In this document: piece after piece, positions 8,265 through 32,631 of the stretch | Layout: each line of letters opens with the position of its first letter | Position numbering within the stretch: position 1 is the first letter of the stretch | NCBI RefSeq assembly: GCF_015207505.1 | Contig: NZ_JADEWT010000067.1 | Coordinates: forward strand, 1 to 34,432 | DNA length: 34,432 bases | Direction of reading: 5' to 3' | Source: Tychonema sp. LEGE 06208 | GTDB taxonomy: Bacteria > Cyanobacteriota > Cyanobacteriia > Cyanobacteriales > Microcoleaceae | Made by a program: the position numbers and the translations under genes | The notes under the pieces: model-generated | What the model saw: the letters and a program-made list of their open reading frames with translations, nothing else | What the model was told of the DNA's origin: nothing | Database searches by the model: none

Positions 8265-8632
8265 ATTTAGAACAGGAAAGTTCGGTAACGGATTTTTTAA
8301 CGGATGTAACGGATAGTGAAGTAGGGTGCGTCAGAAGTGTAAAATTTGTGCGACAAATTCACAATCTCATTGTGACGTACCAACTAATGAATAAATGGTG
8401 TGTCAGTTCTAAAATTTTCGGTGAGAATTGAGAATTATCTTGCCTGACGCACCCTACGGCTAAGATTTGAAAGTACCTGAAACATTAGGCCCGATCGCCT
8501 GCCAAGCAAAACAACAGCAACAGTTGTCAACAAATCAGATTATGCTATACACACGCAGAGAGATCCAAGCAATCCCAAGCGCGGTACTCGACGTTATAAA
8601 AATATTAAGTTGAAGTCCTCGGAGCCTTTAAT
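8265..8632. other. Intergenic region between cyclase and plmA
   Basis: A 368-base gap. Its left half carries the inverted-repeat element at 8321-8457; the rest is AT-rich sequence preceding plmA. No gene is recognised. Confidence 0.5.
8321..8457. repeat. GTAGGGTGCGTCAG-bounded inverted-repeat element, copy 1
   Basis: 137 bases bounded by perfect 14-base inverted repeats GTAGGGTGCGTCAG / CTGACGCACCCTAC. A second element with the same ends and similar length but a different interior is at 24578-24708. No target duplication is visible. It looks like a small non-autonomous or REP-like element. Confidence 0.7.
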
Positions 8633-9616
8633 ATGGTTCAATTTCATATTCAAACAGATAGCGAGATCCCTGCATCCACTCAACTATTCAATCAAATCAG
8701 GTTTGCGATCGCCTCCCGCCAGTTTCCGCCCGGACACCGCTTGCCGAGTACCAGACAACTAGCCATGCAGACTGGTTTGCACCGCAACACCATCAGCAAA
8801 GTTTACCGACAGCTCGAAAATACCGGACTTGTAGAGGCCCAAGCCGGATCGGGGATTTACGTCCGCGCTCAAGGCCACGAGGGCGGCAGTAAACTCAAAT
8901 CCCCGATCCTCAATGAATACCCGCTTGCTAACCGAATAGTGCAAGAAAGTATGGATCAACTGCTGGGACAGGGCTGTACGCTCAACCAAGCCAGGGAATT
9001 ATTTTTGGCCGAAATTGACTGGCGGCTCAGGTGCAGCGCCCGAGTCGTCGTCACAGCCCCCGCAGAAGACATCGGCGTGGGCGAGCTGATGGCGAAAGAA
9101 CTCGAACAAGCTTTGCGGATTCCTATACAGTTGGTGGCGATGGAAGAGTTGGCTACTTTTCTCGATCAAATCTCTTCGGGAACTGTAATCACGAGTCGCT
9201 ATTTTATCGGACAAGCAGAATTCATCGCAGCACCCCGTTCGGTGCGAGTCATTCCCGTAGACATCTACGACTACGGTCAGGAAATCCAGCTTGTGACGGG
9301 TTTACCGAAAGACAGTTATTTGGGTTTAGTCAGTTTGAGCCCGGGAATGTTGCGATCGACTGAAGTGATCATCCACAGCATCCGGGGCGAGGATTTGCTG
9401 GTGATGACGGCTTTGCTCTCGGATGCCTACAAGATTAACTCGATCGTGCGATCGGCGAGAACAATTTTCTGCGACCAACCGAGCTTTGCTACAGTAAAAG
9501 CTGCCATTAACGCTGCCCGAGAGGATATTATTCGTCCCCCGCAACTGATATGCTCTGAAAATTACATCGGCTCTAAGTCGATTAATTTGCTCAAGCGCGA
9601 GTTGGGCTTGGGGTAA
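8633..9616 (+). CDS. plmA: GntR-family regulator, PlmA type
   Basis: A 327-residue transcription regulator. The N-terminal winged helix (about residues 14-78) is a clear GntR domain: STQLFNQIRFAIASRQFPPG, LPSTRQLAMQTGLHRNTISK, LVEAQAGSGIYV. The remainder (about 95-325) is the cyanobacterium-specific C-terminal region of PlmA, which in Synechococcus elongatus was found through plasmid maintenance and forms a complex with PII and PipX, linking it to nitrogen/carbon balance. Identification as PlmA rests on the length, the near-invariant N-terminus and the absence of an aminotransferase or UTRA domain; it is recognition, not alignment. Only a weak ribosome site is seen. The gene stands alone, and a long repeat block follows its stop. 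Confidence 0.82.
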   Translation: MVQFHIQTDSEIPASTQLFNQIRFAIASRQFPPGHRLPSTRQLAMQTGLHRNTISKVYRQLENTGLVEAQAGSGIYVRAQGHEGGSKLKSPILNEYPLANRIVQESMDQLLGQGCTLNQARELFLAEIDWRLRCSARVVVTAPAEDIGVGELMAKELEQALRIPIQLVAMEELATFLDQISSGTVITSRYFIGQAEFIAAPRSVRVIPVDIYDYGQEIQLVTGLPKDSYLGLVSLSPGMLRSTEVIIHSIRGEDLLVMTALLSDAYKINSIVRSARTIFCDQPSFATVKAAINAAREDIIRPPQLICSENYIGSKSINLLKRELGLG

Positions 9617-19309: not shown

Positions 19310-20338
19310 CTAATCACCATCAATCCCAAAACTTCGCAACTTAAACATAATATTATTAATTTTTTTAACTACCCAACTTTTGAAATTTCTACCCAAACGA
19401 ACCAACAAATTGGGCGGCGCGAGATTTGGGAGTTTTTCCGGCGAATTCAAATAGCGGTAGTGCAGAAACACCTCTCGGTAGGGAATCCCAACATCTTCCC
19501 CAGCACACAATCGAGTAAACTTGGCAGCCGAAATGCTCATGTAGTGCAAGTAAGTCAGCCGCTGTCCTTTGTCGTATAAAACATAATCTATCACATCAAA
19601 TTTAGAAGACCAATGATTGCCCGTTACCCCAGCAGGTTGATGATACGCAAAGTTATAAAAAGAGATTTTGCTGCGGGCTACTAAATAGTTCAATAAAGAT
19701 TGGTCAGATGCACTCAAACACATAATTTCCGCTTCTCCTGATGTTAAGTTGTCTAACAGTTGGACAGAATTTTCTCTATTAAATATTTCTTTTTTTGAAG
19801 CAAATAAACCTGTACAAAAAGTATGAGATGGCAGTTGGTCTATATTGAAAATATGTGGCAATTTATCTGATGATAAATCAAACACATAATTGAGGTCGGA
19901 TTTGTACTGAAAATCGTTTGCTACCCAATCAAATTCATCAAGTTTGTGATAAATGTAATCCAGAGAACCCATTAACAGAGTGTCAGCGTCAAAATATACA
20001 AATTTGTCAAAAGGCCCGTCAAAACAGCATAATTTCCGATGCCTGGTCAAACAGTGAACTGGTTTCAAACCTTTAGCTTGCCAAACTTTTTGAGCTTTGG
20101 CGTGAGATGTCCAAGCTTGAGTTGCAAAGTCTTCCCAGAAATAAATTGAATCGGTGTTGTCAAAGAGGGTGACATTAGAACGAATTGCAATTTCTACTCG
20201 CACTTTTTTCAGCCTATCATCATAGGGAATAATACAAACGGGAATATCTTTTGCCCCATTGACTTCGAGACTGTTTAACAAAGCAACTAAGTGGTCGAAA
20301 ACAACATCGTTTGCTAGAATATAAATGCCATCAGTCAT
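19310..20338 (-). CDS. Npun_R2821-like glycosyltransferase, paralog A
   Basis: A 342-residue GT-A-fold glycosyltransferase of the cyanobacterial Npun_R2821/R2823 type, distantly GT8-like. It starts DGIYILANDVVFDHLVALLNS, has PYDD at 38-41, and carries the metal/sugar-nucleotide DXD motif as Asp-Ala-Asp at 117-119 (VYFDADTLLMG). The C-terminal family motifs are YVLYDKGQRLTYLHY and HYRYL. Donor and acceptor are unknown. It is the last gene of the minus-strand locus, and similar to the next two genes upstream, indicating tandem duplication and divergence. Confidence 0.85.
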   Translation of the reverse strand: MTDGIYILANDVVFDHLVALLNSLEVNGAKDIPVCIIPYDDRLKKVRVEIAIRSNVTLFDNTDSIYFWEDFATQAWTSHAKAQKVWQAKGLKPVHCLTRHRKLCCFDGPFDKFVYFDADTLLMGSLDYIYHKLDEFDWVANDFQYKSDLNYVFDLSSDKLPHIFNIDQLPSHTFCTGLFASKKEIFNRENSVQLLDNLTSGEAEIMCLSASDQSLLNYLVARSKISFYNFAYHQPAGVTGNHWSSKFDVIDYVLYDKGQRLTYLHYMSISAAKFTRLCAGEDVGIPYREVFLHYRYLNSPEKLPNLAPPNLLVRLGRNFKSWVVKKINNIMFKLRSFGIDGD

Positions 20339-20389
20339 AGTTTTTTAATTAATAAGTAACCCAGCGCATATATATTTCTTTTTAGGTGC

Positions 20390-20454
20390 GGGCAAGATGC
20401 CCACACTACAAGAAATAAAATTTATAGATTGTGGAACAGGCAAGATGCCTGTTC
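20390..20454. repeat. REP-like palindromes around GCAAGATGC
   Basis: GGGCAAGATGCCC (20390-20402) and the longer GAACAGGCAAGATGCCTGTTC-type palindrome (20434-20454) share the core GCAAGATGC. They occupy the 157-base gap between glycosyltransferase paralogs A and B and could form hairpins in the mRNA. Confidence 0.7.
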
Positions 20455-20495
20455 TTCAAACCTTGTTGATAATGATACAACATATGATTGTCTCC

Positions 20496-21404
20496 TCACC
20501 TAGTGAAAACACGAAATAATTTTTGCACTAAATTTGGTTTTTCCTCTTCCTCATGAAGGTAACGATAATGTTTCCACAATTCCCAATAAGGACTACCCGA
20601 TTTAATTGGTATCCCAGCCCAGTGCAGATATTTTAACTTTTTGCCTTTGTCATAAAGCACATAATCTATTTCCTGAAAATGTGTAGAACCAGCCCAGCTT
20701 CCTGGTTCTGCGGCTGAAGCTTTAACAAAGTTGCAGCGCTTGGGAATTAACTTAAGAATCATGTAATTTAGTATAGGTTGGTCTGTGACATTTTGAGTAA
20801 AGTCAAAATATTCTCGATGCTGCGCGCATTCTCGCAAAATATTGTACATTTGCGATTCGGTAATAGTGCCTTTTCTGGAAGCCCAAAAACCGCTGTTAAA
20901 GACATCTTGAAGCTGTGAGTCGGTAAATATATTCTGTTCTTTTATGACAGGTGAAAATACATTTCGCAGTTTTTCGCTGAGGTGGTGATAGTCGCAGCAA
21001 AAAAAGTCTACTTCTGAGAGTTTGTTGAGGTTGGCTGCGATGTCTTCAAAAACGATGATATCGGTATCGATGTACAGAAATTCGTCTAGGGGGCCAAACC
21101 AGGCGCAGAGTTTCCGCATTTTGCTGGGAAGGGCTAGAAAAGTGCGATCGAACATTTGGCCAATTTCTCTGGTAAACTGTTCCACAAACTCCAGATTTGG
21201 GAACAAATGCACCCCGTAGAGGCTGCTGAGGGCGGCCGCGACTTGCTGATAATTGTCGTCAAACGGGATCAGAAAAACTGGTACTTGACAATTGTACAGA
21301 CGTATGCTTGCCATAAGGGCGATCGCGCTTTCCATCACCCTATCATTAGCAACAATATAAATACCGCGACTCACATCAAATCCATTAACATCAGAATAAC
21401 TCAT
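20496..21404 (-). CDS. Npun_R2821-like glycosyltransferase, paralog B
   Basis: A 302-residue member of the same family. It has an extra N-terminal segment (MSYSDVNGFDVSR) before GIYIVANDRVMESAIALMAS. The DXD motif is Asp-Thr-Asp at 113-115 (LYIDTDIIVFED). It keeps PFDD at 47-50, YVLYDKGKKLKYLHW and HYRYLHEE, but its middle part is clearly divergent from A and C, suggesting a different acceptor or donor. Confidence 0.83.
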   Translation of the reverse strand: MSYSDVNGFDVSRGIYIVANDRVMESAIALMASIRLYNCQVPVFLIPFDDNYQQVAAALSSLYGVHLFPNLEFVEQFTREIGQMFDRTFLALPSKMRKLCAWFGPLDEFLYIDTDIIVFEDIAANLNKLSEVDFFCCDYHHLSEKLRNVFSPVIKEQNIFTDSQLQDVFNSGFWASRKGTITESQMYNILRECAQHREYFDFTQNVTDQPILNYMILKLIPKRCNFVKASAAEPGSWAGSTHFQEIDYVLYDKGKKLKYLHWAGIPIKSGSPYWELWKHYRYLHEEEEKPNLVQKLFRVFTR

Positions 21405-21449
21405 CTCTCTTCTCTCTCAGCGTTCTCTGCGTCCTCTGCGGTTTAAAAA

Positions 21450-22424
21450 TCAAACATTGATCCTCAACCTTCTCAATACCCTGGTTAACAAATTCGACCG
21501 AGAAACCTCAGTATAAGACTTAGGCGCTTGGGTAAAAACCGGACGCTTTTCCGGCTCCCGGAGATAGCGGTAATGCAGAAACAAATCGCCATAGGGAAAC
21601 TCAATATTTTCCCCCGCACAAACCCTCCGAATTAAATCCGGCGGCACGCCAATATAATGAAGATAAGTCAGCCGATTTCCCTTATCATACAAAATATTAT
21701 CGCGTTCTTCAAAATGTTGGGAAGTCACGCTGCACCCAGTTTTCTCAACCTCCGGGAGGCTATAAGCAAAATTATAGCTCTTCAGGTTCGTTTTCATCAC
21801 CATATAATTGAGCAACGGCTGTTCTCCCGCACCTGCATAGAGAATTTCCGCCTCGCCCGATTGCAGTTGAGCTAACAGCCATTCCCTAGTATTTTGCTCA
21901 AACAATCCTTGCTTGCTAGCATAAAATCCAGAACAAAATATTTCCGAATCAATCCGATTTTGCTCAAAAACTTCGAGCAGTTTTGGCGACTGAATATTGT
22001 ATACTTTAGTTGGGGATAGAAATTGAAAATCATAAACCACAAAATCCGATTCCTCTAACTTCTGAAAAACCGCATCAAAAGAATTCATCACCAAAGTATC
22101 AGCATCCATATAGATAAACTTTTCAAACGGGCTATCGAAAGCGCAAAAGCGCCGATGTGCGCCGTAAAGCCGGAATTTTTTGCGGTTCAAACGCTCTGGT
22201 GCGGCTGCTTGCATGAATTTATCCCATCGCTGAATAGATGCGCTATCTTCATAAATAAAGACGTTGGGACGGTTGACAATTTCAGCTTGGATTTGCTCTA
22301 TTTGGTCGTCGAAAGGATAAATACAGACCGGAGTATTTGAGCCTAAGATAACTTCAATACTGTTGAGTAAGGCAATTAGTTGGTCGTAAACTGTATCGTT
22401 GGCTAGCGTGCAAATTCCATTCAT
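21450..22424 (-). CDS. Npun_R2821-like glycosyltransferase, paralog C
   Basis: A 324-residue family member: NGICTLANDTVYDQLIALLNS at the N-terminus, PFDD at 37-40, DXD as Asp-Ala-Asp at 107-109 (IYMDADTLVMNS), NILYDKGNRLTYLHY and HYRYLREPEKRP. It is closest to paralog A (shared RLTYLHY, CAGE and LFLHYRYL blocks), so A and C probably arose from a more recent duplication than B. It follows the SUMF1-fold gene by 66 bases on the same strand. Confidence 0.85.
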   Translation of the reverse strand: MNGICTLANDTVYDQLIALLNSIEVILGSNTPVCIYPFDDQIEQIQAEIVNRPNVFIYEDSASIQRWDKFMQAAAPERLNRKKFRLYGAHRRFCAFDSPFEKFIYMDADTLVMNSFDAVFQKLEESDFVVYDFQFLSPTKVYNIQSPKLLEVFEQNRIDSEIFCSGFYASKQGLFEQNTREWLLAQLQSGEAEILYAGAGEQPLLNYMVMKTNLKSYNFAYSLPEVEKTGCSVTSQHFEERDNILYDKGNRLTYLHYIGVPPDLIRRVCAGENIEFPYGDLFLHYRYLREPEKRPVFTQAPKSYTEVSRSNLLTRVLRRLRINV

Positions 22425-22490
22425 ATTTAGTCAGGAAAAAGTGCAGATGGCTCAAGGGTAAAAGGATAGACAAGAGTCTTCGCGGAAAAA

Positions 22491-23603
22491 CTAAGCCGAG
22501 GGAGAAACCGAGGCTACCGCTACGCGAAAACCATTGAGCTTCCACTTATAATCCGCCGAGTTCGCGTAGCGAGTGGCACTACGACACCCGTCCGAAAGGT
22601 AGTACCAACAACCGCCACGCTGCACCCGGTTATTATCTGTACCAGTTTCCCAGGAACTTCCGTCAGTTGGTGCGCCGTTATAGTTCGAGTGAACCCTATC
22701 GCTGCACCACTCCGAAACATTCCCGTGCATATCGTACAGTCCAAAGGCATTGGGAGGAAAACTCCCGACATCTGTTGTTTCTCGACGCGGAAGTCCTTGA
22801 GGGGCGTTTGCGTACGACAACCTTCCGTCACAGTTGACTAATTCTTGGGTAATGGTTTCCCCAAAATGAAATGGGGTTGTTGTACCCGCACGACAGGCGT
22901 ATTCCCATTCTGCTTCACTCAGGAGGCGATATTTTTTCCCGGTTTTTTGTGAGAGTTTGCCACAGAATTCGACGGCATCATCCCACGATACAGTTTCTAC
23001 AGGACGTTTTTTACCTTTGAAACCCGATGGGTTATTTCCCATCACTGCTTGACACTGTGCTTGGGTGATGGGATATTTTCCTGCATAAAAAGCGGGTACT
23101 ATTACTTGATGCTGCGGACTTTCAGTATCGTATCTACCTTCCTCTGTTGCTGGCGAGCCCATCATAAAAGTGCCGCCGGAAATATAAACCATTTCCAGTA
23201 CAACTCCGTTACCTAAGTTTTCGAGGCACAAGTCAGCATAATGACGGCGGCGACTGTTTTCTTTCCCTTCAGCATCAACCGTTATCACATCAAATTCAAA
23301 AATAGGCAAATATTTGTCTAACTGCTCTTTTATATTTAGTTCATCTCTATCCTTCAGCAGCGAATAGGCTACAAACTTCACCAACATTGATTCATCTTGC
23401 AGTGCCCCAACTATCAAATCTAAACCTGCATCTCGATATTTCAGCGCTTCATACAGTGCAGCAATTTTCACCTCGACAATCGGTGAAGCTAAACGACTCT
23501 TAACACCGGGAATCCCGCCTAAGACAGCAGCACCGAGGGGGGGTGGATTTTGACCGCCGAGTACGGCATCGTATTCTCTTGGTTGATTTTGATTTTCTGT
23601 CAT
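22491..23603 (-). CDS. SUMF1/FGE-fold protein with cyanobacterial N-terminal domain; candidate DGR target
   Basis: A 370-residue two-part protein. Residues 1-100 hold the cyanobacterial YDAVLGG...GAAVLGG...GVKSRLAS segment followed by HEAT-like helices (VKIAALYEALKYRDAGLDLI). The rest (about 130-365) is a formylglycine-generating-enzyme/sulfatase-modifying-factor fold (C-type-lectin-like): GGTFMMGSPATEEGRY, PVETVSWDDAVEFCGKLS, YRLLSEAEWEYACRAG, FGLYDMHGNVSEWCSD, and a C-terminus ending NGFRVA. The FGE cysteine pair is not in its normal place, so sulfatase activation is doubtful; ligand binding is more likely. The final 35 residues resemble a diversity-generating-retroelement variable region (see findings). 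Start 23603 gives MTENQNQ; a 12-codon upstream extension is less likely. The gene lies within the glycosyltransferase operon, 11 bases after GT10. Confidence 0.85.
   Translation of the reverse strand: MTENQNQPREYDAVLGGQNPPPLGAAVLGGIPGVKSRLASPIVEVKIAALYEALKYRDAGLDLIVGALQDESMLVKFVAYSLLKDRDELNIKEQLDKYLPIFEFDVITVDAEGKENSRRRHYADLCLENLGNGVVLEMVYISGGTFMMGSPATEEGRYDTESPQHQVIVPAFYAGKYPITQAQCQAVMGNNPSGFKGKKRPVETVSWDDAVEFCGKLSQKTGKKYRLLSEAEWEYACRAGTTTPFHFGETITQELVNCDGRLSYANAPQGLPRRETTDVGSFPPNAFGLYDMHGNVSEWCSDRVHSNYNGAPTDGSSWETGTDNNRVQRGGCWYYLSDGCRSATRYANSADYKWKLNGFRVAVASVSPSA
22518..22625 (-). other. Putative DGR variable region (VR)
   Basis: The segment encodes RVQRGGCWYY to NGFRVA. Fixed positions match the DGR/FGE consensus RGG-W, CRSA, R, D and NGFRVA. 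The residues between them are Q, C, Y, Y, L, S, D, G, T, Y, A, N, S, Y, K, W, K and L. Almost all have codons (TAC, TAC, CTT, TCG, GAC, GGG, ACT, TAC, GCG, AAC, TCG, TAT, AAG, TGG, AAG, CTC) that could come from AAN codons by changing adenines only. The template and reverse transcriptase are not visible. Confidence 0.45.
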
Positions 23604-23614
23604 TGTACTATTTC

Positions 23615-24565
23615 TTAAGATACAAAATTGGACAGCCAATTGAGCAAGTTTAATTCATGGAGAATGATTTGCCTCGCTTCCGCAATTTTCTCCCTCGCTT
23701 CATGCCAATAATCCGCATTAGCCACAACCTCTTGAATAAATTGTACCCCTTTTTCATCCAAACTCGGCAGCCGCAGAAAACTCCCCGCCGGCAACAATTT
23801 ATCCGCCGCCGAACCACCGTAATAAATTGGCAAACACCAACCTAACAAAGCATCCCAAAGCTTCTCGCTGACATACAAATCGTTTTCTGCATAATTTTCA
23901 ATAGCTAAGTTGTAATAGTATGGTGCGACGGCGTGCCATTTATTGTTTACAGTACCGTTTCCCTGTGCCCAAGTTGGCAAGTTTCGCCCGTAAAGGTCAA
24001 AGTCTAATTTTTGTTGTTGCAGCAATTTGATAAAATATAATCGCTGTCGGTGGTTGGCGGTGCGGCTAACACCTGAAGTAATCCAAGAACAGGATTTAGT
24101 TTTCGGCGGCGCAGGCATTTCATCGAGTTCTCGAAACGAGTTAGAGTGATACCAAATCGCGGGCATATAATCGGGTTTTGGTGCGAAGTCGTCGGGCCCG
24201 GAAATGTAGCCGCAATAAAGTTTTGCTTGTTCGTAGTTGGTTTTAGTAATCTCAATAACTTCTGGTAAGGGTGGCTCGCGGATCAGGTAAATTATGCGTT
24301 CCTTGGGGACACCGCGCAATTTGTCTCGAATGTCATTTTCTGGATTTTGAGGGCTTGGACGGCGGATTTTGTCGAGCCAGGATTGCTGTTTTGGCGATCG
24401 GGGAAAGTCGAATTGATACATCAGTAAAAAATCAGGTTTGGGGTGATTTGCTAGCATTTGAATGTTGCCCCATTTGCCGAAGTTTTGGGGGGTTTGTTGC
24501 CACAGCCAGTCGCTTTGGTTGATGCCTGGATAGGTGGTGATTGTGCCGAGAATTTGTGGGTTCAT
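23615..24565 (-). CDS. Glycosyltransferase family 10 (fucosyltransferase-like)
   Basis: A 316-residue GT10-type enzyme; family members transfer fucose from GDP-fucose in alpha-1,3/4 linkage. The C-terminal donor-binding signature is clear: YNLAIENYAENDLYVSEKLW followed by DALLGWCLPIYYGG. The middle has SWITSGVSRTANHRQRLYFI and DLYGRNLP. The start at 24565 (MNPQILGTITTYPG) is preferred over an in-frame ATG at 24610, whose 15 extra codons lie inside a repeat element. No fucose-synthesis gene is visible, so the donor is unproven. It is followed 11 bases later by the SUMF1-fold gene. Confidence 0.87.
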   Translation of the reverse strand: MNPQILGTITTYPGINQSDWLWQQTPQNFGKWGNIQMLANHPKPDFLLMYQFDFPRSPKQQSWLDKIRRPSPQNPENDIRDKLRGVPKERIIYLIREPPLPEVIEITKTNYEQAKLYCGYISGPDDFAPKPDYMPAIWYHSNSFRELDEMPAPPKTKSCSWITSGVSRTANHRQRLYFIKLLQQQKLDFDLYGRNLPTWAQGNGTVNNKWHAVAPYYYNLAIENYAENDLYVSEKLWDALLGWCLPIYYGGSAADKLLPAGSFLRLPSLDEKGVQFIQEVVANADYWHEAREKIAEARQIILHELNLLNWLSNFVS

Positions 24566-24577
24566 AATTAGTAGTAT

Positions 24578-24708
24578 GTAGGGTGCGTCAGCTTGGGTGA
24601 TTTTCGCCATAATTGATAATTTAAAAGCTGACGCACCGCACAGTTAATGGTGCGTCTGTTTTGATAATTTTATCAATTGTCTGTCGCCTGCGGACTGACG
24701 CACCCTAC
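24578..24708. repeat. GTAGGGTGCGTCAG-bounded inverted-repeat element, copy 2
   Basis: 131 bases with the same perfect 14-base ends as 8321-8457, plus internal copies of GCTGACGCACC and GGTGCGTC. It occupies the gap between the GT4 and GT10 genes. It supplies the last 11 or so codons and stop of GT4 (VGCVSPQATDN) and lies just upstream of the GT10 start. Confidence 0.75.
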
Positions 24709-25884
24709 CAATGACTCATCCACATAACTCAAAATCCTCTCAATCCGATTTTCCCATGAAAATTGCTTGACAAAATTTAATGTTTCTGCATAACCTTCGA
24801 TTTTCCTCGGATACTTGGTTAAACAATCTCGAATGCTTTGTGCAAACTGCTGCGGGTTATCCGGTTCGCACCAAGTTGCTGCTATATTTCCCGATTTAAA
24901 TTCCCTTAAAGATGCAATCTCCGTCGCCACAATTGGAGTTCCCGACGCCATATAATCAAAGAACTTCAAAGGAGACGTGAACGTCGCGGCCTCTGTCAAA
25001 CAGTGAGGGTGAGTCAAAACATCCGCAGCTTGCAGCAAGCTAGCCAGTTGATTTTGAGGCAGGTATCCGAGAAAATTAATGTTGTTAACTTGCTTCTCTT
25101 TAGCTAATTTCCGGTATGCTGTAACTTGGGATGAATCCCCACCTGCGATCGCAAATTGAACTTCCGGCAATTCCTCCGCTACATCCACCAGCATATCGAC
25201 ACCTTTAAACGGGTAAAGTCCCCCCGCATAAACTGCTAAATGCTGCCTGTCACCTGCTAATAATTGCTGTCGCCAATTCTCGGCTGCTGCTGCTTGTCTC
25301 GCGAGAAACAAATGGTTAAAACCATTGTGCAGCGTAACTACTTTTTCTGGCGGCATCCCATTCTCAATCATACTCTCTCGAACAGTATCTGCAACAGTTA
25401 CAGCAATTTGAAATAGAGGATTACTCACAATTTCTGGTGCAAATTTCTTGTCTTCATGGTGGTGCTGTTCGTAGATAGCGGGAATTCCGTTTTTAATAGC
25501 AGCTTTGACAAAGTTCCAGTCGCGGCTGTGGACGATTTTAGTTGATTTTAGCAGGTGAATTGGTAAATAATATTTACAAACTATGGTACTCGCATTCGTC
25601 CACTTGTTGTCCCAAAAATCGAGGTGAGGCACTGGCAAATCTGCTACTTTTAATTTTTCCTCAAGATTGTAGATTTTGGCAAGTTTGTCAGCGGGTTTTC
25701 TCGGTTGAAAAGGAAAAAGTAAATCAACCGGATTTAAAGCACTCCAGCCTTTGCGAAGGTATACCAAAACTGCTGGATAACCGAGATTTGCTGCGGCATT
25801 TGCAGAGTGTGCAACTTGAACTAAGCTCGCTACATTGGGTTGCGGCAAGACATTTCTGGTAAAAAATACATAATATTTAGACAT
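24673..25884 (-). CDS. Glycosyltransferase family 4
   Basis: A 403-residue GT-B retaining glycosyltransferase. The N-terminal acceptor domain starts MSKYYVFFTRNVLPQPN. The C-terminal donor domain is typical: VYAGGLYPFKGVDMLVDVAEEL, FLGYLPQNQLASLLQAADVL, and the sugar-nucleotide motif EAATFTSPLKFFDYMASGTPIVAT. ATG 25884 is chosen; the longer frame from 25965 adds codons translated from a heptamer repeat (VNSQQSTINSQQST). The C-terminal VGCVSPQATDN is encoded by the inverted-repeat element at 24578-24708, so the natural end has been replaced or extended. Confidence 0.88.
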   Translation of the reverse strand: MSKYYVFFTRNVLPQPNVASLVQVAHSANAAANLGYPAVLVYLRKGWSALNPVDLLFPFQPRKPADKLAKIYNLEEKLKVADLPVPHLDFWDNKWTNASTIVCKYYLPIHLLKSTKIVHSRDWNFVKAAIKNGIPAIYEQHHHEDKKFAPEIVSNPLFQIAVTVADTVRESMIENGMPPEKVVTLHNGFNHLFLARQAAAAENWRQQLLAGDRQHLAVYAGGLYPFKGVDMLVDVAEELPEVQFAIAGGDSSQVTAYRKLAKEKQVNNINFLGYLPQNQLASLLQAADVLTHPHCLTEAATFTSPLKFFDYMASGTPIVATEIASLREFKSGNIAATWCEPDNPQQFAQSIRDCLTKYPRKIEGYAETLNFVKQFSWENRIERILSYVDESLVGCVSPQATDN

Positions 25885-25889
25885 AGGAA

Positions 25890-25937
25890 TTGTTGATTGT
25901 TGACTGTTGATTGTTGACTGTTGACTGTTGACTATTA
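25890..25937. repeat. Heptamer array (TTGACTG)n upstream of GT4
   Basis: About six copies of TTGACTG/TTGATTG, lying within 6 bases of the GT4 start codon and replacing a normal leader. Confidence 0.8.
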
Positions 25938-26003
25938 AGGATCGAAAACTTAATAACTTAAACACCTCCTACAGTTCTTTCTCTTGTAAGTTGCAAGATC
26001 GAA

Positions 26004-26047
26004 GGAGGCAGAGCCTCCGGATCTGCATTACCAGGCTCTGCCTGGTA
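26004..26047. repeat. REP-like palindromes around GGCAGAGCC
   Basis: GGAGGCAGAGCCTCC (26004-26018) and TACCAGGCTCTGCCTGGTA (26029-26047) are two perfect or near-perfect palindromes with complementary cores, a dispersed intergenic repeat. Confidence 0.7.
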
Positions 26048-26050
26048 ACG

Positions 26051-26136
26051 AGCAACTAACAACTAACAACTAACAACTAATAACTAATAACTAATAACCA
26101 ATAACCAATAACCAATAACCAATAACCAATAACAAC
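26051..26136. repeat. Heptamer array (AACTAAC / ATAACCA)n
   Basis: About twelve heptamer units: first AACTAAC, then AACTAAT, then ATAACCA. The change of unit along the array suggests stepwise mutation and expansion. It ends just before the ABC exporter stop codon. Confidence 0.85.
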
Positions 26137-26139
26137 TAC

Positions 26140-28143
26140 CTACTTTTTAACAGTCTGACGTTTGATAGTATTTTCTATAAATTCTAAGGTTTTAAAAATA
26201 TTAGCAGCCGAGTGAAATGATTCTCTAATTAACTCGTCTTTTTCTTCGGGAGAATCTACCATTTCATCTACTAGCAATTTGAGGTAAGCTATCATGGGAG
26301 TCAGGCGAGTGCGAATTTCGTAAGAACCTCTAATTAGTGCTTCGTCACGAGCGGTTTCTTCGGCAAATTGCACTGAATACAAGCGAGTGTAGTAACCTCC
26401 TTTTGCTAGCAATTCTTCGTGGGAACCTATTTCTACTACTTGTCCGCGATCGATTACGGCGATTTTGTGGGCTTTTTGGACTGTGGAGAGGCGGTGGGCG
26501 ATTACTAAGGTTGTGCGATCGCAACTCAATTTCTCGATCGCCGATTGCACATATCTTTCGGAAACCGTATCCAGGGAACTCGTAGCCTCGTCTAAAATTA
26601 AAATTTCCGGGTTTTGCAGCAAAGCTCTAGCAATGGAAATTCTCTGACGCTGCCCTCCCGATAATATTACACCCCGATCGCCAATTTGAGTATTCAACCC
26701 CTCCGGCAACAGTTCGATAAACTCATAAGCATTCGCTCCCCGCGCCGCTTCGACAATTTCTGCCTCACTCGCTTGGGGCCTAGCGTAAGCAATGTTGTCG
26801 CGCACCGAAGCATTAAACAAAAACGTATCTTGGCTAACAATACCCATCGCTTTTCTGAGACTTTTTAGCTCAAATTCCCGCAAATCCGTCCCATCTATCG
26901 AAATATTACCTTCAGTAGGATCGTAAAATCGCGGCAGTAAATCTGCCAAAGTTGACTTACCAGAACCCGAAGTTCCTACCAAAGCCAAAGTAGTGCCGTG
27001 AGGGAGAAATAAATCAATTTTTTGAAGAACTAAATTCTTGTGATTCGGATAACTAAAAGATACTTTATTAAAACTAATTCCCGATCGCAAATGAGTGTAC
27101 GGCACAGAACCGTTCAGCATAAACGGCTTGTCATCGCAGCTCAAAAAATCATTAACCACCTCTACACTAGCCGACGTATTCGCAAATTGGCTGCGCCCGC
27201 TATTCAACTGAGAAATCAAAGGAATTAACCGAAAAAGTACCAATAAATAGGTCAATAAAACCGTTGAAATCGACTCTATTTCATTTGCAAATATTGTGCG
27301 ACCTATAAATACAATCAAAAGAATAACTATTAAATTAACAACTTCGTTAATTGGGGCGATCGCCGCATAATTTACCTGAGCTTGAAAATCTGCGTGTTCT
27401 CGCCTTTGAATTAAATGCTTGATCCGCTGATACTCCCTTTCCTCGTTCCCCGTTGACTTGACCAGCCGAATCCCAGTTATAGTTTCCAACACCCTAACCG
27501 AATAATCCTTCGACATTTCAGAAAGCACCATGCCAAAATGCTTAGAACGGTGAATAATATATTGATTTGTCCAAGCAACTAACGCCAGCAAAACTGTAGC
27601 TGTCACCGTCAGTTTCCACGAGATAGAAAGCAGCAAACCCACAAACACCAAAACAGTAATTGAAGTAGTAAACATTCCGATCGCCGTACCAACTGCACTA
27701 GCCGTCCTGCCAATCTCTCCGCCCAATCTATTAATTAAATCCCCGACTTTAGTTTTGGAGTAAAAATCCAAATCTACTTCTAACAACAACCGCAAACCTG
27801 CTTCTCGCAAATCAAAAGTCAGAGAGCGCGTCAGAGAAGTAGCCACTAAAGTATTGATATAACTCGCAATATTTTTCAAAAAGATTGCCACAAAAATCGC
27901 CGCTGTCATCAACATTAAACGCTGATTTTCGGGCATTCCTTCAAAGGGATACATCAAAGTTTTAATGAGAGTTGGAGCGCCGCGCAGCTCCACCGCTTCA
28001 TCCAAAAAATTTAAAAGCACCGGTACAATCAGAGTAGTGCTGATACCGCTGAATAAAGCCCCAGAAAAGCCCAGGATCACAGTTAATAAAATCCTGCCGG
28101 GATATCGTCTGGCAAATTTTAGGAGTAGCTTATTCGCAGACAT
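26140..28143 (-). CDS. ABC exporter (MsbA/HepA-like) with HisKA-like C-terminal extension
   Basis: A 667-residue half-transporter, predicted homodimer, exporting a lipid-linked glycan or lipid. Six membrane helices span about residues 15-310. The ATPase domain is complete: Walker A GTSGSGKST (390-398), Q-loop Gln438, signature LSGGQ (494-498), Walker B ILILDE (514-519) with catalytic Glu519, and H-loop His550. Unusually, residues about 597-660 add a helical tail reading GSYEIRTRLTPMIAYLKLLV then LIRESFHSAANIFKTLEFIE, which resembles the dimerisation/phosphoacceptor (HisKA) helices of histidine kinases, but with Tyr where the phosphorylated His should be and Arg for the following Pro. It is the central gene of the glycan locus, comparable to HepA in heterocyst envelope formation, but not demonstrably the same. 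Confidence 0.9.
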   Translation of the reverse strand: MSANKLLLKFARRYPGRILLTVILGFSGALFSGISTTLIVPVLLNFLDEAVELRGAPTLIKTLMYPFEGMPENQRLMLMTAAIFVAIFLKNIASYINTLVATSLTRSLTFDLREAGLRLLLEVDLDFYSKTKVGDLINRLGGEIGRTASAVGTAIGMFTTSITVLVFVGLLLSISWKLTVTATVLLALVAWTNQYIIHRSKHFGMVLSEMSKDYSVRVLETITGIRLVKSTGNEEREYQRIKHLIQRREHADFQAQVNYAAIAPINEVVNLIVILLIVFIGRTIFANEIESISTVLLTYLLVLFRLIPLISQLNSGRSQFANTSASVEVVNDFLSCDDKPFMLNGSVPYTHLRSGISFNKVSFSYPNHKNLVLQKIDLFLPHGTTLALVGTSGSGKSTLADLLPRFYDPTEGNISIDGTDLREFELKSLRKAMGIVSQDTFLFNASVRDNIAYARPQASEAEIVEAARGANAYEFIELLPEGLNTQIGDRGVILSGGQRQRISIARALLQNPEILILDEATSSLDTVSERYVQSAIEKLSCDRTTLVIAHRLSTVQKAHKIAVIDRGQVVEIGSHEELLAKGGYYTRLYSVQFAEETARDEALIRGSYEIRTRLTPMIAYLKLLVDEMVDSPEEKDELIRESFHSAANIFKTLEFIENTIKRQTVKK

Positions 28144-28222
28144 GAAGCGTTCCCAGCTAAACAGTATGGCATTTCAAAATATTCTTTAATTGCACCCAGT
28201 TATTCTTCCTCCATTCAGTCGC

Positions 28223-29386
28223 TTAAATATCACCGACACTACCTAAAATTATTTCTGAAAGTATCAGTGCCATTGCTTGAATGCTATATTTTTTTACGCA
28301 TCTTTCCCGAGCTTTCATTCCTTGCAAATTCGCGACGGTCAAATTTTGAAATATCCATTGAATTTTTTGGGAAATTTGAGCGGGAGAACTTGGCTCGACT
28401 AAATAACCAGTTCCTCCTAAAATTGCCGGAATATCCCCCACCCGTGTAGACAAAACAGGCTTAGCCATTGCCATTCCATCTGTCAGCTTGAGCGGAAACT
28501 GAGCCACCGCTGTCAGAGTCTCTCGCTGAGGAACAACGACAACGTGAGCCGCCGCCACAACTTCAGGCATCGTCTCGACTGGAAATCTTGGCAGTTTAAC
28601 AATCCAACGTCCCCATTGTTGCATAAGTCTATCATCATAATCGTCATAAGGACTTCCGCCGACGATCGCTAATTTTAAATCCGGCTCGTTTAACTGTTCG
28701 AGGGCCATCAAAACATCCTCAACACCTTTGTGAGGTCGAGGCGCACCCGGAAACATTAATATTCTATACCCAGACAAGCCATAACGCTCTCTGCTCAATT
28801 CAGGATTGTATTTAGCAGGATCGAAAATTTTAGTATCCTTACCGTTCGGCAAATATACACCACCAAAACGCTGTTGTAAAAATTTAGTATGAACGGTGAC
28901 TGCATTAGCACGGTGGATTAAACTTTCCATCCACTTGATATATAGCGGGTGATCGGGTTTTCTCAATTGACCGTTTTGTTTTAAAATATCTCGATAAAGT
29001 TGTTTAAAAGAAGGACGATATTTCCATTCATCTGGATCGCACCAGCTTAGTTCCCAGTCATCAATATCTAAAATCACAGGGCGCAGAGTCTCCAGTTTTT
29101 TTAGCAGCGATAAACCAAAGCTTGTGGGTTTAGGTTTGACTGCATAAATAATATCTCCATCTATTTTTTTCAAAATTTTTTGAGCATCCATCAAAAACGT
29201 GGGATAGTTTGTCCCTGGTATCGCACAGACTGGGATGTTTGCAGGAGGAATCGCGTACAATTCTTGACCAAACTTAAATCCAACAACTTCTACCTCGTAG
29301 TTAAGCTCGATCAGGACTTGAGCTAAGAGAAAGGCACGAATTGCGCTTGCTCCCGATAAATCGCTCACCACTAATGAAACTTTCAC
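28223..29386 (-). CDS. Glycosyltransferase family 4
   Basis: A 387-residue GT-B enzyme. The N-terminal domain begins VSLVVSDLSGASAIRAFLLAQ; the C-terminal domain has FPGAPRPHKGVEDVLMALEQL, AIVGGSPYDD, and the donor-site region FPLKLTDGMAMAKPVLSTRVGDIP. The start is GTG at 29386, the first residue before the conserved beta-strand. In the N-terminal half it carries an unusual DIDDWELSW stretch (residues about 107-115), seen in some cell-surface glycosyltransferases. Sugar specificity is unknown. It lies 79 bases before the ABC exporter. Confidence 0.88.
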   Translation of the reverse strand: MKVSLVVSDLSGASAIRAFLLAQVLIELNYEVEVVGFKFGQELYAIPPANIPVCAIPGTNYPTFLMDAQKILKKIDGDIIYAVKPKPTSFGLSLLKKLETLRPVILDIDDWELSWCDPDEWKYRPSFKQLYRDILKQNGQLRKPDHPLYIKWMESLIHRANAVTVHTKFLQQRFGGVYLPNGKDTKIFDPAKYNPELSRERYGLSGYRILMFPGAPRPHKGVEDVLMALEQLNEPDLKLAIVGGSPYDDYDDRLMQQWGRWIVKLPRFPVETMPEVVAAAHVVVVPQRETLTAVAQFPLKLTDGMAMAKPVLSTRVGDIPAILGGTGYLVEPSSPAQISQKIQWIFQNLTVANLQGMKARERCVKKYSIQAMALILSEIILGSVGDI

Positions 29387-29726
29387 TGAGCATTTTTTTT
29401 AACATTTACTTAATTTTCCTGCTTAACTGACCTTTTGTCAAGGCGATCGAAACTTGGGTTTTCAGACAAAAGAAATGGAGTTTTTAACCGAGGGAAAGCT
29501 CACTTGCTAAGTAAGTCATTGGTCCTTGGCCATCAGTCATCAGTCATCAGTCATTAGTAGGGGGGAATTTAGCTAATGATCTATGATACAAATGACTGAA
29601 AAATGGGCTCAACCCGCCCTCTTGCTCTTGCTTGTTCTAGGTAAATTCTCGGATGTATTGACGCTATTGTTTAAATTTATTGCCAGAATTTTGTTACTTT
29701 TGATGCTGTTTCGCAGCCAATTTCAA
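29387..29726. other. 340-base intergenic region in the glycan locus
   Basis: Contains a short (CATCAGT)n heptamer array at 29531-29556 and one GGCGATCG site near 29441, otherwise AT-rich sequence. No gene is seen. It is the longest gap in the glycan locus and could hold a promoter for the genes downstream on the minus strand. Confidence 0.5.
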
Positions 29727-30554
29727 TTATTTTAAACGCCAGGGATTGTTGAGTTGATTTGGTAAAAATATTTTAGCAGTGCGATCGACTATTCGAGTCA
29801 AGAGCGATCGCGTGACGTTCTTTGCGTACTGCGGGCGGTAGGGATAGGTGCAGTGCATAACTTTAATCGGTTTGTCGATCGCATAAGCATCTTTCCACTT
29901 ATCCAAGTAGTTGTAAACAGGCGACAATGTTGTCATTTTCGGTTGGACAAATTCCACAGCCGCCGCAAAAGCACCTTGGTCTTTCAATAATAGCACATTT
30001 TGGTTGACCACTACTATCTCGAAATATTTCTTAAAACTTTGGAAAACTTCGCAATTTTTACTGCTTTTCGTAAAAGCGATAAACCCGCCGTTGTATTGAA
30101 TGCTATTTTCATTTAGTGGCAATCCGACCGATTGCAAAGTTGACAGGATGTCCTGCTTAATTCTTAATAAATTTGCAGCTTTAGCAATTGCTGGCTGCAC
30201 ATCTTCTGTCACCAACAAATCCACTTCGTCAAGATAGTCGAAAACTTCATCTATTGGCGACAACAAACAAATATCGCAGTCCATATAAATAGTTTTGTCA
30301 AACGAAGATTCTCGGTACAAAGCCAGTTTAGCTTGGCGCGAGGCTAAAACAGGATTTTCGTGAGATGGTGCAGGTTTCAATATGACTTTTCCAAATACCT
30401 GAAGTAAAGGATATAAAATTTGAGGCACTCTATCTATTAAAATAATAATTGGTTCCTGGTGAAATTTCCTGATTGAAGCCAAAAAATGAATGCAATCTTG
30501 GAATGAGTAAAGACCTGTTAAAATAGTGATAAATCCCTTGGTTTCTACTGTCAT
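29727..30554 (-). CDS. GT8-like glycosyltransferase
   Basis: A 275-residue GT-A-fold transferase. It starts GFITILTGLYSFQDCIHFLAS and has IDRV at 40-43. The metal-binding DXD is Asp-Cys-Asp at 92-94 (IYMDCDICLLSPIDEVF). SIQYNGGFIAF (about 151-161) and KDQGAFAAAVEF (about 196-207) match the acceptor/donor contact segments of GT8-like enzymes; MHCTYPYRPQ closes the fold. The start ATG at 30554 leaves 83 bases to the GT14-like gene. Confidence 0.82.
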   Translation of the reverse strand: MTVETKGFITILTGLYSFQDCIHFLASIRKFHQEPIIILIDRVPQILYPLLQVFGKVILKPAPSHENPVLASRQAKLALYRESSFDKTIYMDCDICLLSPIDEVFDYLDEVDLLVTEDVQPAIAKAANLLRIKQDILSTLQSVGLPLNENSIQYNGGFIAFTKSSKNCEVFQSFKKYFEIVVVNQNVLLLKDQGAFAAAVEFVQPKMTTLSPVYNYLDKWKDAYAIDKPIKVMHCTYPYRPQYAKNVTRSLLTRIVDRTAKIFLPNQLNNPWRLK

Positions 30555-30601
30555 TAAAAAATTAACTACTTTAGTTTTGTGGACTTTGGCGTTCAGGTTT
30601 T

Positions 30602-30630
30602 GAGGCGGACTGAAAGCCTCACTACGAACC
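30602..30630. repeat. GAGGC..GACTGAAA..GCCTC repeat
   Basis: A short stem GAGGC/GCCTC followed by ACTACGAACC, related to the unit at 5072-5087. Confidence 0.5.
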
Positions 30631-30637
30631 GAGTTTT

Positions 30638-31570
30638 TTAAGTGAAAATTAAGGAATCTAATTTGTCAATAATTTCCGCATCTTGTTTGATGTCAAACTT
30701 GCGCGCAAAGTGAAAGTTGCCGTTAGTAATTGTCGCATAATCTTGCACTGTCAGCGTTCTTGGCGAACCTGCTATCGCATTGGTATAATCAATATAGCGT
30801 TTGTCGTCATTCACGAGATTTAAGTTTTTATTGTTGACTAAGATAGTCTGGATGAAAGACTCTTCTGGGACTACTGTTTTTTGATAATAGTCCACAAAAT
30901 CCGGGCGAGTATTAACAAAATCTTTGATGTATTCAACGCACTTTCTAGAGAGAGTGTACCACGCCCAGCCGCCGTAGCAGATAAACCGATCGCTAAATAA
31001 GGTCGATCGGCGCGGTATCCCCACCAGCGGGCCGTAACTCAGGTAAAATTGCAGCGGAGTCAATTTTTGCACCGCCGACAACTGCTGAAATTCTTTCAAA
31101 AAATTGTAACTCCAGCGGCCGGGAATTCGCCAGTAACGGCAATAATACCGCTTGAATCCTTTCTGTTTGTCCCAAGGTATTCCCTCAGCCAAAACATCCC
31201 AATACCGAATAAAACCATCCGAGTCTGTTTTCGCGAGAAACTCCTCAGTTTTTGACAGCGGTTGAGTGGGATAATCTTGGCCGGTTAAATTAATCAGCCA
31301 GTCAAAATCAGAATTATTGGCAAATAACCAATCAATTGCATTTAAATAGGGTTGAACTTGACAAGAAAAATCAGCGCGGATCAAATATTCTTGATTGGTC
31401 AACAAATGAATATCTGACAATTCTTGCAGCGGAGTCAAGTCTAAATCGCATCTATTAAAGTTGTGATTGATGAGGATTTGAGCGTGAGGAGTCGATTTTT
31501 TTATAGCGCGAACCAGGCGATAAATTTGTTGGGGATTTTGATGGGTTTGGATAAAATAGCAAATTTTCAC
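30638..31570 (-). CDS. GT14-like (core-2/I-branching) beta-1,6-glycosyltransferase
   Basis: A 310-residue protein resembling family GT14 N-acetylglucosaminyltransferases, including bacterial forms in capsule and exopolysaccharide clusters. Signatures: KICYFIQTHQNPQQIYRLVR at the N-terminus, DWLINLTGQDYPTQPL (about 88-103), CYGGWAWYTLSRKCVEYI (about 207-224), and VVPEESFIQTIL (about 242-253) with the catalytic-type Glu; FARKFD near the end. It has no DXD motif, as expected in GT14. The stop lies 83 bases from the next gene, while its start is 2 bases after the stop of the GT1-like gene, so those two are tightly coupled. Confidence 0.87.
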   Translation of the reverse strand: MKICYFIQTHQNPQQIYRLVRAIKKSTPHAQILINHNFNRCDLDLTPLQELSDIHLLTNQEYLIRADFSCQVQPYLNAIDWLFANNSDFDWLINLTGQDYPTQPLSKTEEFLAKTDSDGFIRYWDVLAEGIPWDKQKGFKRYYCRYWRIPGRWSYNFLKEFQQLSAVQKLTPLQFYLSYGPLVGIPRRSTLFSDRFICYGGWAWYTLSRKCVEYIKDFVNTRPDFVDYYQKTVVPEESFIQTILVNNKNLNLVNDDKRYIDYTNAIAGSPRTLTVQDYATITNGNFHFARKFDIKQDAEIIDKLDSLIFT

Positions 31571-31572
31571 GG

Positions 31573-32631
31573 CTATTTCTTAGAGATAAATTGATTGAGG
31601 CGGCTTTGGAGGCGGTTTGCTTTCATAATTAGATGGCGGCGGGTTAAAAATATTTGCTGCTGCCAAATAGATGCGGTACACCAACGATAATAAGCAGGAA
31701 CGGCTACGTTTGTCAAAAAATTGCGCCACTGCGAAATAATCTGGGAATTTGCCGTTTCCTGCGCTCTGATTCTACCATTTTCGATCGTTGCCGCGCGCAA
31801 ATTACGATCGCCCCGCAGCATTTCAACAGCAGCAATCGCTTCCTCCGGCGAAGCTACTTCTATGTAATCAAGTTCGCTTTTGCGTTCCCTGCGGTATGCA
31901 GATTCGCGTCCCAGAACCGCCGGAATGCCCGCGTGCCAAGCGTTAATCAATTTCGAGGGAGGTTTCGAGTCAAAAGTGAGTTCGCCCTCAAAACTGCGAA
32001 CAGCCACAATCACATCAACTTTACTGTAATCGTGCCAGCGATCGCACCCCACGACTTGCCAATCCAAACCCAAAACGCCGAGTTTTTCGCCCCAGGATGG
32101 TGCTTGCAATTCCGGTGCTAGACTGTCTAAAACGCCGAAGAAGGCTGCATTTTTAAAGATTTCGCCCCGGCCCGCATCGCGGGGAATCAACCCTGGTTGC
32201 AGCCAAAATTTGAGCGGATGACACTGCCATAAAAATGGCGATCGACTAAATAGCGGATCGCGATCGTTCTGCACCACTTGTAACTGAGCGTAAGGGTGAG
32301 GTTCTCTATCCACTTTAATACAAACAACCAGCAACTTTGGCAGCGGTTGTAAATTATCGGATAAAAAATCTCGATGGGACAGCACGATGCCTTCATCCGG
32401 CATAAAATCTATTAATTGACATGGCAACCCGTCCGCTTTCAAATAAAGATAAGTTTGCAGAGTCCAATCATACTTGCCCCGGCCGTACCTGCTACCCCAA
32501 GAACTCATCCACTGCCAGTATTCTTGAGGAATTTCTGGCATTTTTCCTGCAGGCCACTGGCTTTTAGGAATGTAAAAATAAATCGGCGGCCAACTTTCAT
32601 TCATTTCTTTATCCAGCCTGCTATTTGTCAA
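31573..32631 (-). CDS. Glycosyltransferase (GT1-like, exostosin-like C-terminus)
   Basis: A 352-residue protein with a GT-B-type C-terminal half: VDVIVAVRSFEGELTFDSKP followed by PSKLINAWHAGIPAVLGRES, which resembles the nucleotide-sugar site of family 1/4 enzymes, then YIEVASPEEAIAAVEML. The N-terminus is less typical (PPIYFYIPKSQWP). An alternative start is the ATG at 32604 (MNESWPP). It is the first gene of the minus-strand glycan locus, after a 409-base divergent region, so the promoter for the locus should lie upstream. Exact family and specificity are uncertain. Confidence 0.75.
   Translation of the reverse strand: MTNSRLDKEMNESWPPIYFYIPKSQWPAGKMPEIPQEYWQWMSSWGSRYGRGKYDWTLQTYLYLKADGLPCQLIDFMPDEGIVLSHRDFLSDNLQPLPKLLVVCIKVDREPHPYAQLQVVQNDRDPLFSRSPFLWQCHPLKFWLQPGLIPRDAGRGEIFKNAAFFGVLDSLAPELQAPSWGEKLGVLGLDWQVVGCDRWHDYSKVDVIVAVRSFEGELTFDSKPPSKLINAWHAGIPAVLGRESAYRRERKSELDYIEVASPEEAIAAVEMLRGDRNLRAATIENGRIRAQETANSQIISQWRNFLTNVAVPAYYRWCTASIWQQQIFLTRRHLIMKANRLQSRLNQFISKK

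Follow-up and report, generated by a model that had tools for sequence, protein, structure and literature searches.

A probable orphaned variable protein of a diversity-generating retroelement encoded in a glycan operon of the cyanobacterium Tychonema sp. LEGE 06208

Results and Discussion

An FGE-fold gene with a hypervariable C-terminus

The window, by which we mean the whole stretch of 34,432 nucleotides analyzed here (contig NZ_JADEWT010000067.1), carries on its minus strand an open reading frame (ORF) of 370 codons at 22491..23603. An earlier note on this DNA, made from the sequence alone, had assigned the product to the formylglycine-generating enzyme (FGE) fold, and Pfam agreed: residues 137-362 (22518..23195, minus strand) matched the FGE-sulfatase domain (PF03781; E = 1.9e-51), which is the only Pfam domain of the protein. 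Residues 1-100 (23304..23603, minus strand) belong to no Pfam family and are helical in part in the structure model. Their YDAV.GG start is common to the subfamily of the window protein, which comprises stand-alone proteins that have the N-terminus in common and are 70-72% identical to the window protein. In sequence searches, the window protein matched PvdO (5hha) at E = 1.1e-35 and a variable protein of Treponema denticola (2y3c) at E = 1.8e-21, the latter best over residues 222-362, and the fold search with the model of the window protein (mean pLDDT of 62, used for the fold only) returned two PvdO chains on top and 2y3c in the third row. Catalytic FGEs bear a conserved pair of active-site cysteines separated by five residues, and we take C336S/C341S in PDB titles to denote this pair. 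Among the invariant cysteine columns of the 40 aligned relatives of the window protein (214, 237, 300, and 340), no two are five residues apart, and thus no FGE-type pair was found there.

The protein ends in the tail RVQRGGCWYYLSDGCRSATRYANSADYKWKLNGFRVAVASVSPSA. The segment at 22519..22629 (minus strand) is homologous to the template repeat (TR) of a diversity-generating retroelement (DGR) in a congeneric genome, G014, with 72 of 111 bases identical, and residues 334-357 (22533..22604, minus strand) constitute a hypervariable core that we regard as a probable orphaned variable region (VR). In the homolog alignment, 18 of these 24 residues had entropies of 2.0-3.8 bits, while the flanking RGG, CR, and GFRV had 0-0.3. 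The layout recalling a DGR variable region, as described in the earlier note, is therefore real, with hypervariable blocks set between nearly invariant flanks. The window protein combines the C-type-lectin/FGE fold with a C-terminal VR, as a protein descended from a DGR variable protein would.

Two arguments that the note had drawn from single codons failed. That the variable codons are derivable from AAN by changing adenines alone holds for any codon at all: with N unconstrained in the third position, each XYZ can be reached from AAZ through adenine changes, and the property is uninformative. The Cys codon TGT had been placed one adenine away from AGT, and it is not one step from that codon. 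This residue, C332, is Ser in at least 90% of the 40 aligned relatives, and TGT was made by non-adenine changes because the aligned template and relatives have TCG, TCC, or TCT at this position.

The gene occupies a variable site in a glycan operon

We compared the genome of the window (G000; a draft of 6.55 Mb in 232 contigs, completeness given as 100%) with its relatives in a set of 29 Microcoleus genomes including G000, one genome per species. Around the FGE gene, ten other ORFs on the same strand were counted in 19310-32631, one fewer than the eleven glycan genes of the earlier note. A GT10-type, two GT4-type, and one Branch-type gene as well as one ABC transporter gene scored above the Pfam cut-off; the other five are a GT8-type gene just below it, two ORFs of no family, and two paralogs that are GT8-like but belong to no Pfam family. 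The genes at 19310-20338, 20496-21404, and 21450-22424 are all GT8-like and resemble one another at about 30-45% identity; two of the three have no Pfam match.

The FGE gene is bordered by the GT10-type glycosyltransferase gene (23615..24610, minus strand), which was found in all 29 genomes, and by the GT8-type glycosyltransferase gene with the Pfam score just below the cut-off (21450..22424, minus strand). The order GT10-FGE-GT8 was observed in 8 of the 29 genomes (G000, G001, G002, G011, G012, G018, G020, and G027), and G024, in which the FGE gene lies at this site across a contig break, brings the count to nine. In another nine (G003, G004, G007, G009, G013, G016, G021, G025, and G028), GT10 and GT8 adjoin without an FGE gene, and G015 has a different frame of 350 residues between them. 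Of the remaining genomes, G023 reaches a contig end here, and nine show no GT8 within the next 1.5 kb. Judging from these gene orders, we regard the GT10-GT8 junction (window 22425-23614) as a site of variable cargo within the glycan operon.

The FGE genes at this site differ mainly in their tails. Seven positional orthologs (G020 is not among them) had only 10-29% of the 21 variable tail columns in common with the window protein, against 72-82% outside the tail, while those of G018 and G027 had 86% of the tail in common with each other. Most proteins of the neighboring genes were 85-94% identical, with lower values for the gene at 19310 (77-82%) and the GT8 of G018 (73%). Outside the tail, the FGE gene had p1 and p2 of 0.08-0.15 and p3 of 0.16-0.26, and the ABC transporter gene had p2 of about 0.02 and p3 of 0.15-0.21. 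The whole FGE gene is thus fast at the protein level, as would be anticipated if no DGR had been involved and a normal FGE-fold protein were under ordinary diversifying selection at its binding surface; the comparison with real templates given below bears on this explanation.

DGRs in the genus

Using the RT of BPP-1 and then that of G014 as the queries, we detected DGR-type reverse transcriptases (RTs) in 5 of the 29 genomes, namely G014, G025, G026, G028, and G008, the last being partial at a contig edge. The four complete ones have the motif LPIGN..SQ in common. Among 30 loci retrieved with the G014 RT, to which the motif check applies (11 further rows of G011, without a locus, stand outside it), four bore LPIGN..SQ, 23 were of the QG type seen in group II RTs, and three had neither motif (L124, the cut RT of G008; L134 in G009; L143 in G019). 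No DGR-type RT was found in the nine genomes with the FGE gene at the GT10/GT8 site: G000, G002, and G012 gave no match to the G014 RT, and the checked matches of G001, G011, G018, G020, G024, and G027 were of the QG type. We considered a link between the operon FGE gene and the absence of the RT (a DGR-type RT was found in none of these nine genomes against 5 of the 20 others), but the genomes are too few to claim it.

Of the 17 mismatches in the 160 bases of the G014 TR/VR pair, 15 are at template adenines. G001 has kept a template repeat close to fmt, the gene for methionyl-tRNA formyltransferase, although no DGR-type RT was found in that genome. This orphan TR and its own target (L260; contig C155, 14881-15040 and 15417-15576) differed at 16 sites, 13 of them template adenines, and neither an RT nor an accessory gene was found between the template and DUF4160/DUF2442/fmt. 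Separately, G014, which has a DGR, bears five FGE-type stretches in tandem at L099 (contig C343, 6242-11734); they are related to the subfamily of the window protein and differ in their tails.

No complete DGR was found in the genome of the window

G000 has five RVT_1 matches, four group II-like (HNH-like ends read by eye; two were run against NCBIfam and both confirmed) and one retron-like, and the DGR motif was found in none of them. The DGR RT of the same genus as the query gave no match in G000 at 1e-10, and three DNA queries for a template repeat retrieved only FGE genes and chance-level matches. None of the three PF05635 genes was similar to the Avd of G014 at 1e-3, and no Avd gene was found beside a target or an RT in G000 except for a broken avd-start stub on contig C27. 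Of a complete DGR cassette, we thus detected in G000 neither the RT, nor the template repeat, nor Avd; the draft assembly of G000 is broken into 232 contigs, and an RT could sit in a gap, although completeness is given as 100%. The earlier note had held that the absence of the RT and the template repeat would speak against its proposal, and because these searches gave neither, the objection holds for current activity. As for the retron-like RT (L005; contig C177, 73563-74201), it lies in a frame of 615 amino acids whose N-terminus looks TPR-like by eye and whose C-terminus matches the slr1353 family, all of its matches being below the NCBIfam cut-offs.

The locus on C27 (L101; about 7464-8842) consists of an FGE target followed by the avd stub, which contains a stop. 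The FGE gene differed from the G001 template at 9 of 23 adenine sites and 3 of 55 others. The spacer and broken avd start aligned with the FGE-avd spacer of G008 (188 columns, 73%, 8e-11), and DUF2442 and fmt come next, at the same site as the orphan-TR locus of G001. Neither an RT nor a TR was found at C27. We read this locus as the putative scar of a lost DGR. Its variable core recurs without change in G027, a single change following directly behind; the surrounding 8.9 kb are 95% identical. An FGE-type paralog on C159 (L100), cut by the contig end, differs from P0087 at 6 of 232 residues, none of them in the tail; over these 232 residues, the paralog is 99% identical to P0116 and 97% to P0087, and it has the same tail as both.

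The tail of the window gene against templates

Compared with the G014 template, the window had mismatches at 17 of 27 template adenines and 22 of 84 other bases (Fisher p = 9e-4), and compared with the TR of G025, the best of three real templates, at 15 of 24 and 18 of 54, respectively (p = 0.016). We also inferred a template from 13 genes outside the subfamily of the window protein; at codon positions 1 and 2, the window departed from it at 16 of 28 adenine sites against 5 of 20 others (p = 0.027). Taken alone, this adenine signal of the window gene is modest. Tails with indels (e.g., L085, L096, L106, L284, and L291) are outside the fixed-length tests, and L293 was dropped from the test at codon positions 1 and 2, the third-base test, and the leave-one-out comparison.

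At the variable codons, 8 of 11 third bases of the window were those of the inferred template (3.5 expected, P = 0.0019), and seven subfamily members of the tail class of the window together matched at 64 of 77; among 11 control tails from 10 hand-picked loci, one reached P < 0.05 (L240, 0.022). We treat this conservation as support only, because, at a synonymous divergence of about 0.2 among orthologs, selection on recent homologs could suffice, and the test at positions 1 and 2 against a real template replaced it. Moreover, third bases in this class had p3 of 0.40, against about 0.2 at neighboring silent sites, an excess that a DGR alone would not cause and that favors ordinary diversifying selection.

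In the leave-one-out comparison, 11 of 46 constant template sites were changed in the window, which is the highest rate among the 20 in its class, while L179 of G005 and L274 of G027 had 0 of 43. No template repeat of this tail class (AVASV) was seen across the 29 genomes. We interpret the window tail as DGR-made and then subject to ordinary drift, because its adenine trace is weaker and it has the most changes at constant sites.

Subfamily members bear the trace of adenine-directed change

A clearer signal came from the AVALAV tail class, for which the G001 template is a real counterpart. Its nine targets, five belonging to the subfamily of the window protein and one being the own target of G001 beside the template, were changed at 116 of 207 adenine sites but only 17 of 225 non-adenine sites, counting codon positions 1 and 2 alone and thus ignoring silent sites. 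Among the five subfamily members, changes were found at 14 (L026), 12 (L027), 16 (L030), and 16 (L108) of 23 adenine sites against 1, 1, 2, and 2 of 25 others, respectively (p < 2e-4 each), and at 12 of 23 against 6 of 25 in L033 (p = 0.043). These p-values are too small, because related sequences are counted as independent and inherited changes repeatedly (the tails of L026 and L027 are mostly alike). In the genomes carrying these five (G027, G007, G023, G016, and G002), the search with the G014 RT retrieved either nothing or RTs of the QG type.

The fold does not account for this pattern. Codons 9 and 20 had entropies of 1.2 and 1.4 bits in the AVALAV class but 3.6 bits each in 80 other FGE tails, and structure alone does not fix their constancy in this class, because they vary freely in those 80. 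In AGG codons, the first base varies and most sequences retain the second, and selection has no reason to respect the letters of a template. The concentration of change at the template adenines, together with the AGG codons, argues against ordinary diversifying selection without a DGR, which we consider very improbable in spite of the fast evolution of the whole gene and the elevated p3. That changes fall mostly at template adenines is, on this comparison, largely borne out for the subfamily members against a real TR, and the DGR ancestry of the window gene thereby appears well supported. Of the proposal of the earlier note that the protein is a DGR-diversified binding module, the adenine-directed change in the subfamily sustains the ancestry; as regards a present-day target, for which no RT or TR was found in G000, the proposal is not supported.

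Tempo and origin of tail change

We examined the tempo of tail change with 96 proteins (4560 pairs; of 121 proteins, 16 without a recognisable tail and nine long ones were left out). Mean tail identity was 0.90 for the six pairs at least 95% identical in the rest of the protein (0.88 for five of them, the sixth pairing the window protein with a shorter record of itself), 0.81 for 12 pairs at 90-95%, 0.38 for 58 pairs at 85-90% (range 0-0.94), and 0.15-0.20 below 85%. Tails thus seem to be retained between close proteins and replaced between more distant ones, a result that is only indicative because the database, clustered at 90%, hides close pairs with different tails.

The window tail could still be an active target in trans, the RT having been missed by the assembly or being acquired intermittently from relatives. 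The patchy occurrence of DGR RTs (5 of 29 genomes), the divergent tails of pairs 85-90% identical elsewhere, and the unaltered constant sites of L179 and L274, in whose genomes no DGR-type RT was found, are consistent with such activity. Against it stand the searches of G000, which found neither RT nor TR, the window tail having the most non-template changes in its class, the sister tails in G000 (C27 core and C159) unchanged in relatives, and the high tail identity of the closest pairs. We consider an active target improbable: current diversification of the window tail is not supported by the sequences compared, and activity inferred from the other genes would be low.

Tails might otherwise be swapped by recombination among paralogs, and the window tail would in that case have been pieced together from older VRs instead of having drifted. 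Swapping would be permitted by the numerous paralogs within a genome (8 matches in G000), the tandem array of G014, and blocks common to some tails. However, no fixed-length tail agreed with the window tail at 61 or more of the 72 core bases, near-identical tails of known position (C27-type and glycan site) occupy the same site in different genomes, and the adenine pattern still requires a DGR to have made the tails. We therefore give swapping little chance of being the right account.

A probable orphaned DGR target and its relation to known systems

Altogether, we consider it likely that the window gene encodes a DGR-shaped variable protein that is now orphaned, its tail having been rewritten by a DGR in an ancestor and then frozen and drifted. 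In that ancestor, a DGR would have set the C-terminal binding residues of an FGE-fold protein, most likely in trans. Upon the loss of the RT, the variable region would have frozen and subsequently accumulated ordinary substitutions in a retained ORF, leaving a putative binder of fixed specificity encoded in a glycan-synthesis operon. Its ligand may be a surface glycan, which is a guess from the operon, or another ligand. A broader proposal, which is possible but rather doubtful, is a hit-and-run cycle in which DGR machinery is intermittent in Microcoleus and serves a standing, genus-wide set of trans targets; the RT and template would come and go, each passage rewriting scattered binding genes, and the tails, including that in the glycan operon, would be left frozen and inherited.

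The window gene resembles the remote targets that PMC7517822 describes among 58 cyanobacterial DGRs, with a C-terminal CLec fold, a VR near the 3' end, and dispersed paralogs far from the RT. In contrast to the genomes of that work, which carry complete DGRs, no RT or TR was found in G000, and its orphan has drifted and lies at a glycan-operon position shared with relatives. That work also reports all3226 of Nostoc PCC 7120 as a remnant of TR-VR homology with no RT nearby and suggests that the machinery is removed once a good variant has been selected; its main text does not contain the word 'Microcoleus'. TvpA of T. denticola (2y3c), the DGR variable protein matched by the window protein in both the sequence and fold searches, belongs to a DGR system according to PMC7159879, whereas the searches made for the window protein gave neither an RT nor a TR. 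The DGR-linked FGS-domain sensors of conflict systems portrayed in PMC7159879 and PMC10907252 are similar in the FGE/FGS fold, the C-terminal diversified module, and the occurrence in multicellular cyanobacteria. Unlike those sensors, the window protein and the scanned operon genes showed no vWA, MoxR, or peptidase domain in Pfam scans, and the neighbors are glycan genes. PMC8144416 states that its method misses remote targets, and PMC8867640 notes a phage target that stays conserved in the absence of DGRs. No report of a DGR target in a glycan operon was seen in the literature searched, and the one paper in it that combines Microcoleus with DGRs appears to mention the genus in unrelated contexts.

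DGR surveys that start from the RT miss the targets whose RT is gone. Such orphans can be found by contrasting adenine with non-adenine sites of a relative's template at codon positions 1 and 2, and, as the present case suggests, genomes with no DGR retain orphaned binding proteins of DGR shape. The fate of a diversified gene after the loss of its machine, including that of a target shared at a glycan-operon site, becomes testable across one genus.
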